Of a DNA stretch of 21,571 nucleotides, positions 517 through 13,065 are shown in pieces. Position 1 is the first letter of the stretch; every line of letters begins with the position of its first letter. The DNA lies in IMG/VR virus record IMGVR_UViG_3300030331_000139, positions 1 through 21,571 of that record. One strand, 5' to 3'. The translations under genes and the position numbers were made by a program. Source of the DNA: a virus. Under the pieces are notes generated by a model. The model made no database searches. It was not told the DNA's origin and was given only the letters and a program-made list of their open reading frames with translations.

Positions 517-524
517 ATATTATC

Positions 525-553
525 ATGCTACCGTATTTCGGTCTAAAAGTCAA
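525..553 (-). promoter_or_regulatory. Sigma70-type promoter before the CobT-like gene
   Basis: On the minus strand TTGACT (553-548) is followed by a 17-nt spacer and TAGCAT (530-525). The ATG lies 8 nt further on. The -35 box sits in a GCTTGACT context like those before gp55 and uvsY. The -10 box is poor, so this is the weakest of the set. Confidence 0.45.
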
Positions 554-649: not shown

Positions 650-1729
650 CTACTTTTGAAAGATAAAAGTGGGTTCAAATTTACGGCCTGAGATATCTGG
701 TCTCTTATATTCGCCCATATATTGTTGTTTTTGTTTAGTCTCTTGTATATCACCATCAATAGTTGACACAGCAGATCCTCCTTGTTGAGTAGATAGTGAT
801 AACCACCATGTATCTGTGTGTTGAAATCCTACATCTTTTGCAAGTGAAACTGTATCTTCTTCAAATGTCTTATACTGTTTTGTATTAGCAACATTGAGTG
901 CAAGATATTTGCCAGTTTTAAGACCTTTGTATGCGTTGGCAATAGTCTGTTTTAAAAACTTTTCTTTCCATATATCACTAGTTGAAAACTTAATACTTGA
1001 TTGTTCTGGTTCATCACCATATGCTTCCCAACCAAAGTAAGGTGGACTCGTAAATACGAAATCTAGACTTTCATCTTCTGGTATAAATGTTTCACTACCT
1101 TGTCTGTGTAGTTTATATGTGTTATGTGGATTACCATAATCATTTAATATGCCTTTTAATCCTTCATATGTAGGTATACAAGGATCAGTACCGATATAAT
1201 TAATACCAGCTGCAATCGCACCAAGTAATCGACCACCATAACCCATACTAGGATCCCATACTGTGCCTGCAACTGTGCCTTCAAGTGGACTATCTTTATC
1301 TACAAAAACATCATACATGGCTGCAGCTGCAGTAGGTCTAAAATTAGAAACCATTTGAGTGCCACTATATCGTCTTAACATAGATCGCATATCTGATTCT
1401 GTAATCATATGAGCAGGTTTCTTTTGAAAGAATGTGCCTGATAATATTTTATTTAAACCTTTTTTAAGATGTTCTTCATCTTCCCATATCTCCATAGGTG
1501 TTTTCATTTTACCACATTTGATACCCCATGCGTGTTCCATGTATGACCATGCAAGATTTAACCCATGTGCAGATTGACCTATGATTTTATTCTTTCTATC
1601 AATGAGTGTGTCTCGTCTAAAATTTACTAACTGATTAAATATTTCATTTCGCCACTCTCTATTTTTTGGATAATAAGGAAAACCTTTCTTCTTCCAATCA
1701 TCATGAACTTGTTGTAGATTATCTGTCAT
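650..1729 (-). CDS. DNA methyltransferase, SPPY type (N4-cytosine/N6-adenine family)
   Basis: This is a predicted S-adenosylmethionine-dependent amino-methyltransferase acting on DNA. With the start at 1729 it has 359 residues. Residues 158-167 (WDPSMGYGGR) fit the AdoMet-binding motif I, and TSPPYF at 227-232 is the catalytic motif IV of amino-MTases. Motif I comes before motif IV. About 150 residues precede the catalytic core and may bind the target; their family is not recognised. The ATG at 1729 overlaps the upstream acetyltransferase by 11 nt and has AGGAG 12 nt ahead. An ATG at 1741 has that AGGAG directly against it, with no spacing, and a longer frame would need a TTG at 1780. No restriction nuclease is visible nearby, so it is probably an orphan enzyme protecting or marking phage DNA (inference). 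Confidence 0.85.
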   Translation of the reverse strand: MTDNLQQVHDDWKKKGFPYYPKNREWRNEIFNQLVNFRRDTLIDRKNKIIGQSAHGLNLAWSYMEHAWGIKCGKMKTPMEIWEDEEHLKKGLNKILSGTFFQKKPAHMITESDMRSMLRRYSGTQMVSNFRPTAAAAMYDVFVDKDSPLEGTVAGTVWDPSMGYGGRLLGAIAAGINYIGTDPCIPTYEGLKGILNDYGNPHNTYKLHRQGSETFIPEDESLDFVFTSPPYFGWEAYGDEPEQSSIKFSTSDIWKEKFLKQTIANAYKGLKTGKYLALNVANTKQYKTFEEDTVSLAKDVGFQHTDTWWLSLSTQQGGSAVSTIDGDIQETKQKQQYMGEYKRPDISGRKFEPTFIFQK

Positions 1730-2165
1730 ATAAGTAAACATCTCCTGGTAGTGTGCCTTTTGCCCATGATGTGGTGCCAACTAGTTTCATATTGTTTTTG
1801 AGATAAAATTTCTTTGCTACTTCATTATCACTACGAACACTTAGATATACTCGTCTTGGATCTACAAATTCAAAAAACTTTTGTAGTGCTTGACTTGCAG
1901 AACCATTGTGATATTTAGCTGCGATTTGATGTAATATACAATCGCCTTGTTGAGCAATCACATCACCTATTCCTGGGAATAGTCGACCTATTTTTTGTTT
2001 TCTTTTATAAAAATTATATGTAATCACTACATTATTATCAAATATTAAATTTTCTTTTGCAATCATGCGTTTCATGTAATCTGTTCTTATATGTGGAAAC
2101 CATTTCTTATGTTGATAAAATATTTCTTTTATCGATTCAAAGTCTGTTTCTTTGGCATGATTCAT
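1719..2165 (-). CDS. GNAT-family N-acetyltransferase-like protein
   Basis: The 148-residue product ends with a region typical of GNAT acetyltransferases: a strand (VYLSVRSDN, about 105-113), then the AKKFYLKNNMKLVG helix-turn pattern. That pattern matches the conserved N-x-x-A-x-x-F-Y-x-x-x-x-F-x-x-V-G end of the fold. GNAT enzymes move an acetyl group from acetyl-CoA to an amine on a protein or small molecule; the acceptor cannot be read from the sequence. The acetyl-CoA loop (Q/R-x-x-G-x-G/A) is degenerate, so activity is uncertain. The gene has its own promoter, with TATACT exactly 6 nt before ATG and no Shine-Dalgarno. It overlaps the methyltransferase start. Confidence 0.7.
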   Translation of the reverse strand: MNHAKETDFESIKEIFYQHKKWFPHIRTDYMKRMIAKENLIFDNNVVITYNFYKRKQKIGRLFPGIGDVIAQQGDCILHQIAAKYHNGSASQALQKFFEFVDPRRVYLSVRSDNEVAKKFYLKNNMKLVGTTSWAKGTLPGDVYLYDR

Positions 2166-2171
2166 AAAGTA

Positions 2172-2200
2172 AGTATATCACAAATAATTAATTAAGTAAA
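2172..2200 (-). promoter_or_regulatory. Sigma70-type promoter 6 nt before the second acetyltransferase gene
   Basis: On the minus strand TTTACT (2200-2195), a 17-nt AT-rich spacer and TATACT (2177-2172) end 6 nt before the ATG at 2165. The -35 end runs into the last codons of the upstream hydroxylase gene. Normal initiation, about 7 nt after the -10 box, would start the mRNA at or next to the start codon. Confidence 0.6.
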
Positions 2201-3513: not shown

Positions 3514-3800
3514 TTTCTCTTTCTAAAAAATCTTCGCCATAGTGCTGATCTTGTCATACTAACAACTGTAAATATAATTGCGATACCCATACTATCAAAT
3601 ATACTAGGATGTAAATCAAAGAGTGGAAATATTGTCAATTGTATAATAACTGCTAAAAAGAAACCACTACCGACATCTATCACACTTTCTACGATATCTC
3701 TACTAATTTTGATTTTTAGGGGGAATAACCGTCTCATAGCCGCCGCTAGGGACGGTTTTAGAGCTGTCTGTGTATGATAGTACCCCCTAGATTTTGACAT
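3510..3800 (-). CDS. Small two-helix membrane protein, DUF7220-like
   Basis: The product has two hydrophobic segments, one around VESVIDVGSGFFLAVIIQLTI and one around MGIAIIFTVVSMTRSALW, followed by a basic tail RRFFRKRK. The pattern E-S-x-x-x-x-x-x-G, then I-F-P-x-F, then FTxVSxxRS and RRxF resembles the small phage membrane family I know as DUF7220 (from memory). Its role is unknown; a holin-like or envelope role is only a guess. The start is uncertain: ATG 3800 gives a 14-nt overlap with the deformylase gene, the same size as other overlaps here, while 3818 and 3737 are alternatives. The first 25-35 residues are encoded by a GC-rich inverted repeat (3715-3791), which is odd for this genome. 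Confidence 0.7.
   Translation of the reverse strand: MSKSRGYYHTQTALKPSLAAAMRRLFPLKIKISRDIVESVIDVGSGFFLAVIIQLTIFPLFDLHPSIFDSMGIAIIFTVVSMTRSALWRRFFRKRK
3715..3791. repeat. GC-rich nested inverted repeat across the deformylase/membrane-protein junction
   Basis: The outer arms TAGGGGG (3717-3723) and CCCCCTA (3783-3789) pair over 7 bp, or 9 bp with a G-U and an A-U pair. Inside, AACCGTC (3727-3733) and GACGGTT (3751-3757) pair over 7 bp. Within that loop TAGC (3737-3740) pairs with GCTA (3745-3748) around a CGCC tetraloop. About 52% of the 73 nt between the outer arms is G or C, against a visibly AT-rich background. The deformylase stop codon lies in the outer arm. The function is unknown; an RNA structure controlling the downstream gene is the simplest idea. 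Confidence 0.6.
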
Positions 3801-4521
3801 TTTTACTTGCGACTTCATCTCTCAATCTTTGTTGTTGTCGTCTAATTGTTTGTTTAATTAATTTTGCTTGTGCCTTTTTACCTCTATCTAGTTTCATCTT
3901 ACTTACTAGATCGGTAAATATGTATCCGTTCATGTGTTCGTTCTCATGTTGAAATATTCTTGCTGACATACCATGTAAATATTCTTCAACCTTTTCACCA
4001 TTCTCATCTGTGTATTCTACATTAACCCATTTAGGTCTGTTTATCATTAAGAACAAGAAAGGAAAAGATAAACAACCTTCTTTCATATTAATAGTCTCTT
4101 GACTAAAATCTTTGATAAGAGGATTAAAACAGTTTCTTACTTTACCATCTTCTATCTGTGGGTGACCACCCATGACAAACATACGAAATGGTAAACCAAC
4201 TTGATTTGCAGATAGGCCTATACCACCATACTTTGTCATACTGTCATACATTTTTTGAGATAGTTCTTTTCTATCTTTTATTTCAAACTCTTTTAACATA
4301 TCATCTGAAAACTCAGCGATTCTCATGAGTAATCTTGGATCTGTTGGTGGTATCAAAGGATAAGTTTTATTATCTTTCTTTTTGAGATGTTTATGTAGAT
4401 CAGTAATATGCTCTGTAGTTTTTTCTTTATCTGTTTTTAGAATAGGTGTCTTACCACTTTGTATATTTTCGTAGTGTTTGACTACCTCTTCTACTTTTGC
4501 TGGGGTTAGTTTCTCTGCCAT
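3787..4521 (-). CDS. def: Peptide deformylase
   Basis: Peptide deformylase removes the formyl group from the N-terminal methionine of new proteins and is metal-dependent. All three family motifs are present: GIGLSANQVG (100-109), EGCLS (148-152, metal-binding Cys150) and QHENEH (191-196, His192, Glu193, His196). The 244-residue length is long for the family because about 60 charged residues precede the catalytic domain. Phage deformylases are known in marine T4-like viruses, where they are thought to keep host or phage protein maturation going during infection (family knowledge). The ATG overlaps the gp46 stop by one base (TAATG), so it is probably co-translated with the nuclease genes. The stop falls inside the GC-rich inverted repeat. 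Confidence 0.92.
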   Translation of the reverse strand: MAEKLTPAKVEEVVKHYENIQSGKTPILKTDKEKTTEHITDLHKHLKKKDNKTYPLIPPTDPRLLMRIAEFSDDMLKEFEIKDRKELSQKMYDSMTKYGGIGLSANQVGLPFRMFVMGGHPQIEDGKVRNCFNPLIKDFSQETINMKEGCLSFPFLFLMINRPKWVNVEYTDENGEKVEEYLHGMSARIFQHENEHMNGYIFTDLVSKMKLDRGKKAQAKLIKQTIRRQQQRLRDEVASKNVKI

Positions 4522-7309: not shown

Positions 7310-7798
7310 TTATTTTTTAGTTGGTTCTTCTTCTTTTAAATTTCTCTGTAAAAAATCTAATAATTGGCTTTGATATTGTGCATCATCTCCTTGTAATTGA
7401 TCCATCATATTTTCAACACCTGTATTTGCAATTAATTTAGATTTGATTTGTATTTGTTTTTTTTCTTTCTGTATTCTTCTAATAAATGCGTAGTAAATTA
7501 TTTGTGTAAAATATGCAAATGGATTATTACTTTTATCTGGATTAAAGTTATCCATATATTGTAAACAGTTTTCAATACCATCACTAATCATATCGTCTCT
7601 GAATGTGTAATTAATAAAGTTTGGTCTATATGATAAGTGATTAGCAATCTTTAGAAAACACTCGCCGATATAGTTTGTAACTTCTGGTTTTTTTCTATTT
7701 CTATTTTTTGCTTTCTCACATTTATCTCGATACTCTATCATCGCTTCAAGAAACTTTTTATTATCTACATAATGAGGTTTTTCTTTTGCTTTTTTCAT
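7310..7798 (-). CDS. 55: gp55, late-transcription sigma factor
   Basis: T4 gp55 is a small sigma-like subunit that directs host RNA polymerase to TATAAATA late promoters with the sliding clamp and gp33. The 162-residue product has the gp55 core: a helical region around 40-80 (YIGECFLKIANHL, DDMISDGIENCLQYMDNF) and the region-2-like NPFAYFTQIIYYAFIRRI (92-109), followed by a basic stretch. A C-terminal acidic/hydrophobic end (LLDFLQRNLKEEE, about 146-158) fits the clamp-binding tail of T4 gp55. It has its own strong promoter with TATAAT 6 nt before ATG. Matching late boxes lie in front of structural genes in this same window. Confidence 0.93.
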   Translation of the reverse strand: MKKAKEKPHYVDNKKFLEAMIEYRDKCEKAKNRNRKKPEVTNYIGECFLKIANHLSYRPNFINYTFRDDMISDGIENCLQYMDNFNPDKSNNPFAYFTQIIYYAFIRRIQKEKKQIQIKSKLIANTGVENMMDQLQGDDAQYQSQLLDFLQRNLKEEEPTKK

Positions 7799-7804
7799 AA
7801 ACTT

Positions 7805-7833
7805 ATTATACTATATTTTATATTAAAAGGCAA
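7805..7833 (-). promoter_or_regulatory. Sigma70-type promoter 6 nt before gp55
   Basis: On the minus strand TTGCCT (7833-7828), a 17-nt spacer and a perfect TATAAT (7810-7805) are followed by AAGTTT and the gp55 ATG at 7798. There is no room for a Shine-Dalgarno sequence after the expected start site. The spacing is identical to that at uvsY. Confidence 0.72.
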
Positions 7834-7860: not shown

Positions 7861-7888
7861 TTGACAATCTGAGGAATTTGTGTATAAT
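7861..7888 (+). promoter_or_regulatory. Near-consensus sigma70 promoter on the plus strand, no gene in front
   Basis: TTGACA (7861-7866) and TATAAT (7883-7888) are both perfect hexamers, with a 16-nt spacer. The -35 box is in the same GCTTGACA context as the minus-strand early promoters. Transcription would run rightward from about 7895 and antisense to the Sm-like gene and uvsW. No plus-strand reading frame of credible size follows. Confidence 0.6.
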
Positions 7889-7922
7889 CGACTATGTAGT
7901 CGCCGGGGAGAGTAGCTATAGC
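7889..7922. repeat. Two short palindromes flanking a GC-rich core
   Basis: CGACTATGTAGTCG (7889-7902) is a 6-bp inverted repeat with a 2-nt centre, directly after the plus-strand -10 box. TAGCTATAGCTA (7913-7924, overlapping the stop end of the Sm-like gene) is a perfect 12-nt palindrome. Between them is CGCCGGGGAG, unusually GC-rich here. They could be operator-type sites or the 5' fold of a small RNA. Confidence 0.5.
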
Positions 7923-8371
7923 TAGTGTAGTGTAACCTTACTTTCATTAGCATATTCAAGTTCTTCATCTTCACTTTCTTTTATTCTTTTATCTAATTCT
8001 TCTGCTATTTCCATTATCTTTTTAATTTCATTTTCAGAATAGGAAGTTTTGATTTTAGTGGTTTGTAATTTTCTTAATATAACTTCATAATAGTTTGCAA
8101 GTTCTTTCGCTGCCCTAGATATAACAATGATTTTATCTTTTGGTATCACATACAATTTATCTGTGCTAAAAGGCATCCAAGGTGCCAAAGTATTATCATC
8201 TTTGACGCCAAACTCTGTAATTCTAGGAGTAGTAATTAGTTGTAATGGATTCTGTATTCTTAAAAAATTTTTATCCAATGAAATACTGCCTACTATTGTA
8301 CTACCGTCTGTTAATTTAACGATACGATAATCTGTTAAATCATTTGGCGCTTTCTTTGATTCTTTTTCCAT
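7922..8371 (-). CDS. Small hypothetical protein, possible Sm-like fold
   Basis: The 149-residue product is not firmly recognised. Residues 15-75 alternate short strands and turns: YRIVKLTDGSTIVGSISL, FLRIQNPLQLI, then LYVIPKDKIIVISRA. This resembles the five-strand Sm/LSm barrel, with a DGS turn and a closing strand. Residues 80-140 look helical and charged, ending in an acidic stretch. An RNA-linked role would be an inference from fold resemblance only. It lies between uvsW and gp55. A GATAAATA box, one mismatch from the T4 late consensus, ends 5 nt before ATG and overlaps the uvsW stop. Confidence 0.6.
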   Translation of the reverse strand: MEKESKKAPNDLTDYRIVKLTDGSTIVGSISLDKNFLRIQNPLQLITTPRITEFGVKDDNTLAPWMPFSTDKLYVIPKDKIIVISRAAKELANYYEVILRKLQTTKIKTSYSENEIKKIMEIAEELDKRIKESEDEELEYANESKVTLH

Positions 8372-8376
8372 ACTAA

Positions 8377-8384
8377 TATTTATC
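8377..8384 (-). promoter_or_regulatory. Possible late-promoter-like box before the Sm-like gene
   Basis: GATAAATA on the minus strand differs from TATAAATA only in its first base. It ends 5 nt before the ATG at 8371, the same distance as the exact late box before the tube-like gene. The match may be chance in AT-rich DNA. Confidence 0.3.
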
Positions 8385-9862
8385 TATTCTTTTAGGTCGA
8401 CATTGTGTATTTCATAGTCAAATTCTTCCTCTGTATAGATGTTTATCCTTTCTTGAAAATGTTTTAGTGTAAAGTTTTCTTTTGATTTATGAGTTAAGTC
8501 ATCAGCAATATCATACAAAGTAGCACTAACTTTATTGTCGCCTAATCTTAATCCACGGCCTATACTCTGTAAGTTTCGTATTCTACTTTTAGATGGACTT
8601 GCAAAAACAATATTATGTAAATTTTTTATATTAACACCAGTAGAAAATGTACCATAACTTGCAACAATAATAGCATTTTTTTCTTTCTCTACGATACCTC
8701 TAATTGTTTCTCTTTCGTCTGCTTCAACACCACCAAAAATATAAAAAACTTTTCGGTCATCAGCAGCTTTCTCTTTGATTATTTCGTATAGATTTTTACC
8801 ATGTTTTTCTACTAACTGAAATAAAACTAATGTATTACCTTCTAGTTTTAAAGACAGATTACGAATAAAATTTTGTCTTGACTTACTACTTACTAGATAG
8901 TCAATCTCATCTTGATATTTACCTTGTGATATCATTTTACAATTTTCTGCTGTATGTTTTAATATTAAACATCTAACAGTAAGATTCGATAATTGATTTT
9001 TATCCATAAGTTTTCTTGTAGATGTAACTTTATTTACAGAGCCGAAAAGACCTTCTAAAACTAATTTATGTGTTTGTGCACCATCTAGTGTGCCAGTTAA
9101 ACCTATTCTATATTTACAATCTATAAGTTTAGTCATAATTTCTGTAAGTGATTTAGATTTAAATAAATGTGCTTCATCACCAAATACAACACCAAACTGT
9201 TCAAAATATTTTTTTGGCAACTTATATAAACTTTGCCATGTAGATATCAAAACTCTTTTATCTGTTTGATTAGAATATCCACTATACAACCTATGACAAT
9301 ACTTTTGAACATTCCAACCATATGACTTAAAATCAGAATACATTTGTTCAACTAATGATGTTGTCGGCACTATCAATAAACATCTATTATTTTTTTCATC
9401 TTTAATTAAATGTGAATAATATCGTATAAGTGCATAGATGATAAATGATTTACCACTTGCAGTAGGACTTAGTAACAATGTTCGATTGTATTTTAGACTA
9501 TGATAGATAGCGTCTATTTGATAATCTCTGGCTTCAAAACTTTGACCTAGACTATTTGAAAATTTTGTAACTATATCTTTATTGACTTTGTTTTCTATCT
9601 CTACATCTTTACCAGTTACGATTTGATAGTCTCGTTCTTCGGCAAATGCTCTAATATATGGATATAAACCAAAATATATTTCTTTTGTTTTCTGTGAGTA
9701 TAGTCTTATTTTTCCATCCCACATACGATTACGAAATGCAGGCATAAACTTATAGCCTGGTACATAAAATGTAAAAAATTCTGATAGTTCTCGTTGAATG
9801 TTTGGATCACAATCAACGGTTATATAGACTTCGTTTTTCTTTTCAATTATTATAGTATCCAT
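8384..9862 (-). CDS. uvsW: UvsW, superfamily 2 DNA/RNA helicase
   Basis: UvsW unwinds branched DNA and R-loops and helps T4 switch from origin-dependent to recombination-dependent replication. The 492-residue length is close to the T4 protein. Helicase motifs in order are RDYQ (112-115, Q-motif-like), SPTASGKS (132-139, motif I), the DEAH box (229-232, motif II), GLTGT (254-258, motif III) and QSIGRGLR (432-439, motif VI with the arginine fingers). The first 100 residues match the position of the DNA-binding UvsW N-domain. Its start overlaps the upstream oxygenase by 13 nt. Confidence 0.95.
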   Translation of the reverse strand: MDTIIIEKKNEVYITVDCDPNIQRELSEFFTFYVPGYKFMPAFRNRMWDGKIRLYSQKTKEIYFGLYPYIRAFAEERDYQIVTGKDVEIENKVNKDIVTKFSNSLGQSFEARDYQIDAIYHSLKYNRTLLLSPTASGKSFIIYALIRYYSHLIKDEKNNRCLLIVPTTSLVEQMYSDFKSYGWNVQKYCHRLYSGYSNQTDKRVLISTWQSLYKLPKKYFEQFGVVFGDEAHLFKSKSLTEIMTKLIDCKYRIGLTGTLDGAQTHKLVLEGLFGSVNKVTSTRKLMDKNQLSNLTVRCLILKHTAENCKMISQGKYQDEIDYLVSSKSRQNFIRNLSLKLEGNTLVLFQLVEKHGKNLYEIIKEKAADDRKVFYIFGGVEADERETIRGIVEKEKNAIIVASYGTFSTGVNIKNLHNIVFASPSKSRIRNLQSIGRGLRLGDNKVSATLYDIADDLTHKSKENFTLKHFQERINIYTEEEFDYEIHNVDLKE

Positions 9863-10999: not shown

Positions 11000-11168
11000 A
11001 AAAAATATAACTCCCGTTTCTATCCCATTTAATAAACTTCATAGGTAATAATCTCATATACCATGGTGTAGGACAACTTGTCATGTTGTTCCATAATTCG
11101 TAAACTCTTCCATACTTGCCTATCTTTGATAGACCTACACAGGCAGGATAATCTTTAGATAGCACCAC
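10971..11168 (-). CDS. Small hypothetical protein with GTG start
   Basis: The 65-residue product is unrecognised. It contains YPACVGLSKIGKYGRVYELW and a Cys-Pro-Trp-rich middle (TSCPTPWYMRLLPMKFIKW); many aromatic residues suggest a compact fold. It has no ATG near the front. GTG at 11168 or 11165 is the only plausible start and overlaps the uvsY stop by 14 nt, like other couplings here. The 3' end overlaps the oxygenase gene. Composition and position argue for a real gene, but the start is unsure. Confidence 0.55.
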   Translation of the reverse strand: MVLSKDYPACVGLSKIGKYGRVYELWNNMTSCPTPWYMRLLPMKFIKWDRNGSYIFYGTSTNIRN

Positions 11169-11583
11169 TTGTAAACTTCTTCCATTCTATTGCATTTTTA
11201 ATTAAGAATGTTCTGTTGTTTATACTTCTTAAAACTTGTTCAAGATAAGTAACCACTTGTTTTAGATATGCAGCCTTTTGATCCGCCTTTTGTAGTTCAT
11301 CATCAGAATCCATATAGATGTGAACATCTGCTTTTAATACTTTTAGATCAAAAGGTTTTTCTTTGTAAATACTAGGATCTGCTTTACCTGTATAGTATTC
11401 CCATTTTTGTCTTTGCATAACTTTATGTTCATACTCTGCCTTTTTTAATAGTAAAGAAAACTTATTATAATGTTGTAAATATTTGTTATGTAGTAAAGGT
11501 ATTTTAGTTGATTCAGTATCTAATTCTGTGTCATCAAGTTTAAAATCTTTATCTACTTGTTGTTGTAATTCCTCTAATGTCAT
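11155..11583 (-). CDS. uvsY: UvsY, recombination mediator
   Basis: UvsY loads the UvsX recombinase on gp32-covered single-stranded DNA. The 142-residue product is the length of T4 UvsY (about 137). Recognisable segments are YEHKVMQRQKWEYYTGKAD (about 51-69), KPFDLKVLKADVHIYMDSD (about 76-94) and the C-terminal helix NNRTFLIKNAIEWKKF. The ATG lies 6 nt after a perfect TATAAT with TTGACA 17 nt upstream, so the mRNA is probably leaderless. The -35 box is inside the end of the upstream gene. Confidence 0.93.
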   Translation of the reverse strand: MTLEELQQQVDKDFKLDDTELDTESTKIPLLHNKYLQHYNKFSLLLKKAEYEHKVMQRQKWEYYTGKADPSIYKEKPFDLKVLKADVHIYMDSDDELQKADQKAAYLKQVVTYLEQVLRSINNRTFLIKNAIEWKKFTSGAI

Positions 11584-11589
11584 ACCGTT

Positions 11590-11618
11590 ATTATATCACC
11601 TTTTGGTTTATTTGTCAA
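11590..11618 (-). promoter_or_regulatory. Consensus sigma70 promoter 6 nt before uvsY
   Basis: TTGACA (11618-11613), a 17-nt spacer and TATAAT (11595-11590) on the minus strand are a full match to the sigma70 consensus. AACGGT and then the uvsY ATG follow at once. This would be a strong host-polymerase (early) promoter. Confidence 0.8.
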
Positions 11619-12406: not shown

Positions 12407-12420
12407 CTACTATGTAGTAG
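12407..12420. repeat. Perfect inverted repeat over the stop codon of the tube-like gene
   Basis: CTACTATGTAGTAG is a 6-bp inverted repeat with a 2-nt centre, overlapping the stop codon at 12410-12412. It has no U-run, so it is not a convincing terminator. Its core ACTATGTAGT also occurs at 7891-7900. Confidence 0.4.
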
Positions 12421-13009
12421 ATATTTGTACTATATCATAATTCATATATTGAAAACTTACATTTGCTTGTATGTAATCAATATCTGTTTGTCTTACATCA
12501 TAACTTAAACTTGATAAAGATGTAGGATAAACATTTTGAAATCTTATTTCTGTCTTTGCAATATTTTTACTATTTAAAACTGTTAGTGTTGCGTCAGAAT
12601 ATGTGCCACCTTCAGATAAAGGTGCTCTAGGTTGTCTGCCAATAGTTGCTGTATCTTTTGTAGAACCAGGAAATCTATCTGATCCTGTTGTTTGTAAATC
12701 AGCAAACTGTGTATGATTATTAGGAAAACCTAGACCTAATAACCAATCATGTATTTCTTTATAGTTGTTTAAATTTTCATCAACGATAAATGATAAGTCT
12801 AAAGCAGAGTATGTTATTTTATCACCTGGTATCGGTATATCATATAAAGGTGTATTTTGTTGTGCTGAACCTAAAGATATACCTGGTATATTAGCACTCT
12901 GTACAAAAAATTCTACTAATGGTAGTTTAGTTATTTTAAATCTAAACTGTACAGGACTTGCATAATCTCTTTTAGAGGGTTCTCTATTAATTACATTTAC
13001 TGTTGTCAT
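12410..13009 (-). CDS. Tail tube-like protein (gp3/gp19/gp54 group)
   Basis: The 199-residue product looks like a phage tube-fold protein. PVQFRFKITKLP, then FVQSANIPGISLG, PIPGDKITYSALDLSFIVDENL and a C-terminal VYPTSLSSLSYDV plus VSFQYMNYDIV mirror the strand order of gp19 (substrate strand, AxxLPG-type turn, GD-T strand, YP-x-x-L block, closing strands). In related marine T4-like phages the gene between gp23 and uvsY is often gp3, the tail-tip completion protein, which also has this fold; gp54-like is the alternative. It is preceded by an exact TATAAATA late box and the gp23 terminator. Confidence 0.65.
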   Translation of the reverse strand: MTTVNVINREPSKRDYASPVQFRFKITKLPLVEFFVQSANIPGISLGSAQQNTPLYDIPIPGDKITYSALDLSFIVDENLNNYKEIHDWLLGLGFPNNHTQFADLQTTGSDRFPGSTKDTATIGRQPRAPLSEGGTYSDATLTVLNSKNIAKTEIRFQNVYPTSLSSLSYDVRQTDIDYIQANVSFQYMNYDIVQISTT

Positions 13010-13014
13010 ATTAC

Positions 13015-13022
13015 TATTTATA
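13015..13022 (-). promoter_or_regulatory. T4-type late promoter before the tube-like gene
   Basis: Exact TATAAATA on the minus strand, ending 5 nt before the ATG at 13009. No Shine-Dalgarno fits in the 5-nt gap. It stands directly after the gp23 terminator, so the tube-like gene is transcribed on its own. Confidence 0.75.
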
Positions 13023-13038: not shown

Positions 13039-13065
13039 AAAAAAAAGGGGCCGAAGCCCCTTTTT
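13039..13065 (-). terminator. Strong rho-independent terminator after gp23
   Basis: On the minus strand GGGGC pairs with GCCCC around a UUCG tetraloop, followed by a run of eight U. An A-run precedes it, so the site could also work on the plus strand. The rest of the 78-nt gap between gp23 and the tube-like gene holds only the late promoter. Confidence 0.93.

Follow-up and report, generated by a model that had tools for sequence, protein, structure and literature searches.

The cI mRNA of phage lambda is leaderless. It and other leaderless phage mRNAs start at AUG, as do the mRNAs predicted here; those cases are single genes of unrelated phages, whereas the genes described below form a class common to two promoter types. 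A published passage calls phage transcripts 'often leaderless' (PMC5312081). The closest demonstrated parallel is Deinococcus, where a -10 box 6–7 bp before the open reading frame (ORF) was shown to drive leaderless genes (PMC12340547). Deinococcus-Thermus and the locus studied here share the -10 box ~6–7 bp before the ORF, the lack of a ribosome-binding site and the leaderless mRNA (here predicted). However, in Deinococcus-Thermus the arrangement is host-wide, covers about a third of genes and can dispense with the -35 box (PMC12340547), whereas here it marks a class of phage genes behind either a sigma-70 promoter complete with its -35 box or a late promoter of the phage itself. In T4, late promoters depend on gp55, gp33 and gp45 and carry the TATAAATA box (PMC2988020), which recurs here together with an encoded gp55. 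T4-like cyanophages and phage Melnitz resemble our locus in that their early-type genes are preceded by an unmodified host sigma-70 motif; the passages found on it make no mention of the distance to the ATG or of leaderless mRNA (PMC2984593, PMC9004378). Leaderless phage genes and ORFs adjacent to a -10 box are already known.

The window, by which we mean the whole stretch of DNA analyzed, is a 21.6-kb virus record (IMG/VR IMGVR_UViG_3300030331_000139, 21,571 nt). It derives from a marine T4-like phage and encodes homologues of uvsY, uvsW, gp55, gp46/47 and gp19–gp23. Its GC content of 32.5% is similar to that of the Pelagibacter phages Mosig and HTVC008M, to which its uvsY is 54% identical; identity to uvsY of the Methylophilales phage Melnitz is 51%. 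Rfam and tRNA scans across the window gave no match. On the minus strand, 3787–4521 encodes a 244-aa homologue of phage peptide deformylase (PHROG 2890) with an N-terminal extension, as the profile matches residues 78–207 only.

Four genes in the window start shortly downstream of a sigma-70 promoter:

11584–11618, minus strand: uvsY promoter; TTGACA at 11618–11613, 17 nt, TATAAT at 11595–11590, 6 nt, ATG at 11583
11155–11583, minus strand: uvsY; Pfam PF11056 (E = 7e-40), PHROG 231 aligned from residue 1
7799–7833, minus strand: gp55 promoter; TTGCCT at 7833–7828, 17 nt, TATAAT at 7810–7805, 6 nt, ATG at 7798
7310–7798, minus strand: gp55, late sigma factor; PHROG 234 (E = 2.5e-62)
2166–2200, minus strand: promoter of gene 2165; TTTACT at 2200–2195, 17 nt, TATACT at 2177–2172, 6 nt, ATG
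1719–2165, minus strand: 148-aa gene ("gene 2165"), start at 2165 behind TTTACT-17-TATACT
517–553, minus strand: promoter of the left-edge peptidase; TTGACT at 553–548, 17 nt, TAGCAT at 530–525, 8 nt, ATG at 516

The initial annotation had proposed an identical geometry for the first three promoters and a distance of 8 nt at the left edge. Reading from the sequence confirms TTGACA-17-TATAAT-6-ATG for uvsY, TTGCCT-17-TATAAT-6-ATG for gp55, TTTACT-17-TATACT-6-ATG for gene 2165 and TTGACT-17-TAGCAT-8-ATG for the left-edge gene, and every coordinate proved correct. Against the sigma-70 consensus (TTGACA, 16–18 nt, TATAAT), the matches are 12/12, 10/12, 9/12 and 9/12, respectively; the uvsY promoter also has an extended -10 (TGA). 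Good Shine-Dalgarno sequences at the structural genes, likewise proposed, are present at gp23 (AAGGAGAG), gp22 (AAGGAGAG), gp21 (AAAGGTGGAG) and gp19 (TAGGAGGG).

To estimate chance, the regions upstream of the 28 gene starts in the window were dinucleotide-shuffled. Sites with at least 9/12 matches lie 5–8 nt before the ATG at 4 of the 28 starts, compared with 0.39 in shuffled sequence (P = 0.0005), and those with at least 10/12 at two genes, compared with 0.06 (P = 0.001). A distance of 6 nt is shared by three genes (starts 2165, 7798 and 11583), while any other distance from 0 to 60 nt occurs at one gene at most. The density of promoter-like sites over the whole window is not raised (113 versus 100 ± 10 in shuffles); thus, the significance rests only on position relative to the ATG.

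Extended to nine genomes or contigs, one of them the window (~0.71 Mb in all), the scan again shows sites at short distance in excess of the controls. At 5–9 nt we counted 39 sites, compared with 3–16 in five scrambled motifs, and at exactly 6 nt 15 sites, compared with 1–4; the short form belongs to about seven gene families in IMG/VR loci and homologues are pooled, so these counts are not all independent. An earlier scan of isolates gave 4, 1 and 2 sites, with one scrambled control set reaching 5, a weak signal that sharpened once more genomes and a different control set were used. A Shine-Dalgarno sequence accompanies 37 of 48 sites at 18–30 nt versus 1 of 96 at 4–10 nt; the near-absence at short distance is weak evidence since a short leader leaves no room for one. 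The short class starts at AUG and lacks a Shine-Dalgarno sequence, an absence that the distance partly forces.

The uvsY promoter (TTGAC, 17-nt spacer, TATAAT) is present in nearly all of ~80 close relatives (87–99% protein identity). In nearly all relatives that have it, 5–9 nt, mostly 6, separate the -10 box from the ATG. It is retained where the sequence farther upstream is unrelated; thus, overlap with an upstream gene does not explain its conservation, and the idea that the -35 box is kept only through an overlapping upstream coding sequence can be discarded. In seven relatives other upstream signals take the place of the promoter, and a few (L308, L345 and similar) carry it 25–28 nt upstream. 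In three others (L048, L256, L375), the ATG that follows TATAAT by 6 nt belongs to a 12-codon ORF between promoter and uvsY; this ORF ends in a TGA overlapping the uvsY start codon, and uvsY itself is preceded by AGGA. Two of three cultured phages lack the promoter. Read from TTGACA-17-TATAAT, the uvsY mRNA of the window is predicted to be leaderless.

The 17-nt uvsY spacer (11596–11612, minus strand) has a conserved element: in relatives it usually ends in CC[A/G]AAAGGTGA, which includes a partly symmetric ACC(A/G)AAAGGT. CC[A/G]AAAGGTGA recurs in other phage contigs (L330, L336, L337, L324), where the genes behind it are an exonuclease-like gene, a 57-residue ORF, an unnamed gene and a PHROG 459-like peptidase; it is a possible regulon element. 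AGGTGAT in the uvsY spacer is complementary to the 16S end. We considered it as a Shine-Dalgarno sequence for a read-through uvsY mRNA and rejected it, for it ends ~12 nt before the ATG, upstream of the predicted start. A T4-type middle promoter was rejected by inspection: as at T4 uvsY, it would have a MotA box near -30 replacing the -35 hexamer, and here a full TTGACA occupies the -35 position. The MotA box is given as TGCTTtA (PMC9004378).

The partial symmetry of ACC(A/G)AAAGGT could mark an operator, and together with a promoter-like density equal to that of shuffles it would suit a reading in which the boxes are no promoters but operator sequences or AT-rich matches that arose by chance. 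We consider this very improbable: the position tests with shuffled window sequence and with pooled scrambled motifs reject chance, and both hexamers and the 17-nt spacing are conserved over many sequences. The short-distance arrangement is real, conserved and wider than initially annotated.

At gp55, the distance between the -10 box and the ATG falls into two classes. It is 5–10 nt in 32 of 66 rows of the gp55 tree, without a Shine-Dalgarno sequence, and 21–29 nt (mostly 21–28) in nearly all remaining promoter-bearing rows, mostly with AGAAAG, which is complementary to the 3' end of 16S rRNA. No row has a distance of 11–20 nt, and three rows at 39–42 nt are probably matches within the preceding gene. 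The state changed at least six times on the protein tree. Such bimodality would be expected of leaders that are either missing altogether or of sufficient length to hold a Shine-Dalgarno sequence. The initial annotation held that relatives keeping the genes without the box-to-ATG distance would speak against leaderless mRNAs; gp55 alone shows such a loss, and there the distance jumps to a Shine-Dalgarno leader rather than drifting, which fits two functional modes.

The differing N-termini of gp55 relatives raise the question of whether the annotated ATGs are wrong, with true starts downstream behind internal Shine-Dalgarno sequences and hence mRNAs that have leaders. This is hardly credible, as the uvsY profile aligns from residue 1, uvsY starts agree with those of isolates, and the next in-frame Met of the window gp55 is residue 20, within the aligned region. 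Leaderless initiation, or initiation with a 1–4 nt leader, is well supported as a prediction by comparison: the short distance is kept over many relatives, a valley separates the classes at ~10–20 nt, Shine-Dalgarno sequences are confined to the long class, and it is the ATG that is conserved as the start.

A second promoter lies beside that of gp55. A perfect TTGACA-16-TATAAT at 7861–7888 (plus strand) lies between gp55 and a PHROG 471 gene and diverges from the gp55 promoter; most of 44 gp55 relatives retain it, and it is also seen in Mosig, HTVC008M and Melnitz. It is directly followed by an inverted repeat, CGACTATGTAGTCG, whose near-constant TGT center is flanked by at least seven different pairs of matching arms; promoter and repeat together span 7861–7902 (plus strand). 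Hairpins of 4 bp were found in 30/31 observed versus 18/31 shuffled segments and are thus frequent in shuffles as well; the repeat has no Rfam match. As the predicted start lies inside it, the repeat may serve as an operator and not form an RNA hairpin, and promoter and repeat together may be an operator or the start of an antisense or small RNA.

Gene 2165 had been labeled an acetyltransferase, a name that neither Pfam nor PHROG supports. Its promoter is kept at 6–9 nt in near relatives; in most far relatives there is no promoter, and the gene overlaps or abuts the preceding one, often with a GAGG-type site. The left-edge gene encodes a peptidase (PHROG 459). TTGAC-17-TAG[C/G]AT or a similar promoter lies ~8–12 nt before it in relatives down to ~48% identity and is kept in Mosig and HTVC008M too; with a predicted leader of 1–6 nt, this gene is near-leaderless, not strictly leaderless.

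The initial annotation restricted the arrangement to an early class of genes. This is too narrow, as a late promoter has a like arrangement at exactly 5 nt:

13010–13022, minus strand: T4-type late promoter of gene 12410–13009; TATAAATA at 13022–13015, 5 nt, ATG
12410–13009, minus strand: 199-aa gene, predicted leaderless late gene; Mosig homologue annotated as tail tube protein
13042–13065, minus strand: terminator-like hairpin between gp23 and the late promoter

Two marks of a T4-type late promoter, the TATAAATA box and a gp55 homologue, are present in the window. In T4, about one helical turn separates the late TATA box from the transcription start downstream of it (PMC2988020), so the first RNA base would be the A of the ATG. 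The 5-nt distance is kept in relatives of gene 12410–13009 down to ~40% identity. A count over nine phage genomes or contigs gave 16 TATAAATA sites placed exactly 5 nt before the ATG of an ORF, compared with 0–1 for six scrambled boxes; none lies at 6 nt and two lie at 10–15 nt. Besides window gene 12410–13009, examples are gp2, which encodes the DNA end protector, in both Mosig and HTVC008M, a Melnitz gene at the same position as gp2, and, in HTVC008M, csgF and gp25 (base plate wedge). When the search is limited to 12 nt from an ATG, TATAAATA occurs twice in P-SSM4 (both at 5 nt), once in T4 (5 nt) and not in the cyanophages S-PM2 and Syn9. The T4 site (NC_000866 131165–131180, minus strand) is exactly 5 nt before the ATG of gene 31 and suggests a possible leaderless late gene 31 mRNA in T4 itself. 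Thus T4 has a single such site in the scanned range, whereas here a class repeats at exactly 5 nt.

The hairpin upstream of the late promoter is symmetric; it was detected on the plus strand, and a T run also follows it on the minus strand. Its position between gp23 and the promoter of gene 12410–13009 makes read-through from gp23 unlikely as the main source of mRNA. This bears on the alternative that the promoters are real but translation proceeds mainly from longer read-through transcripts, with proximity to the ATG a by-product of compaction and leaderless products minor. At uvsY the -35 box overlaps the end of the upstream gene with no terminator between, and most intergenic gaps are short, as this alternative would have it. 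Yet with compaction as the sole cause the distances should scatter, whereas they peak at 5 and 6 nt and few sites lie at 10–15 nt; the hairpin shields gene 12410–13009, and many homologues without a short promoter carry a Shine-Dalgarno sequence. We therefore regard translation mainly from read-through transcripts as unlikely.

Much more probable, and in our judgment likely, is that two promoter types are set to start transcription at or near the ATG, giving leaderless mRNAs. From the box positions, their conservation, the two-mode distances and the lack of Shine-Dalgarno sequences in the short class, we infer start sites, use in infection and leaderless translation as follows. Host RNA polymerase with sigma-70 would start ~7 nt after TATAAT at genes with the box 5–10 nt before the ATG (uvsY, gp55, gene 2165, left-edge peptidase), and polymerase directed by gp55 would start ~6 nt after a TATAAATA placed exactly 5 nt before the ATG (gene 12410–13009 and others). 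Transcription would then begin on the A of the start codon or a few bases from it, and the mRNAs, with neither leader nor Shine-Dalgarno sequence, would be read by the leaderless route, in which a 70S ribosome and initiator tRNA engage a 5'-terminal AUG. In these phages, other genes have a leader with a Shine-Dalgarno sequence, and one gene can switch between modes over evolution.

The suggestion that these genes are fitted to the translation habits of the host finds no support. In parts of two genomes of SAR11, the best-guess host group (800 kb), three sigma-70 sites lie at 4–9 nt, compared with 5–12 for scrambled motifs; without enrichment, the arrangement does not look like a host habit for this group. 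Of 12 heterotroph-type marine T4-like phages or contigs, 11 encode the ribosomal protein bS21 (G005 8362–8520, L557, plus ten other records), and 0 of 3 cyanophages do; the three cyanophages have few or no TATAAATA-5-ATG sites. One bS21-bearing contig of 37 kb encodes a homologue of the 148-aa window protein with 100% identity. One published proposal is that phage bS21 selects the transcripts of the phage (PMC9723584). That it retunes the host ribosome toward leaderless phage mRNAs is a doubtful reading of what is only a correlation.

The open-access full text searched yielded no published leaderless genes of marine T4-like phages; within that literature, the predicted leaderless class with two promoter types in these phages is new. 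Two cultured SAR11 phages, Mosig and HTVC008M, make the predicted class testable, and the natural switching of gp55 between leaderless and leadered forms offers a direct way to ask how each mode benefits the phage. If the prediction is true, annotation and expression models of abundant ocean phages must admit leaderless genes, in host-sigma and late-sigma classes.
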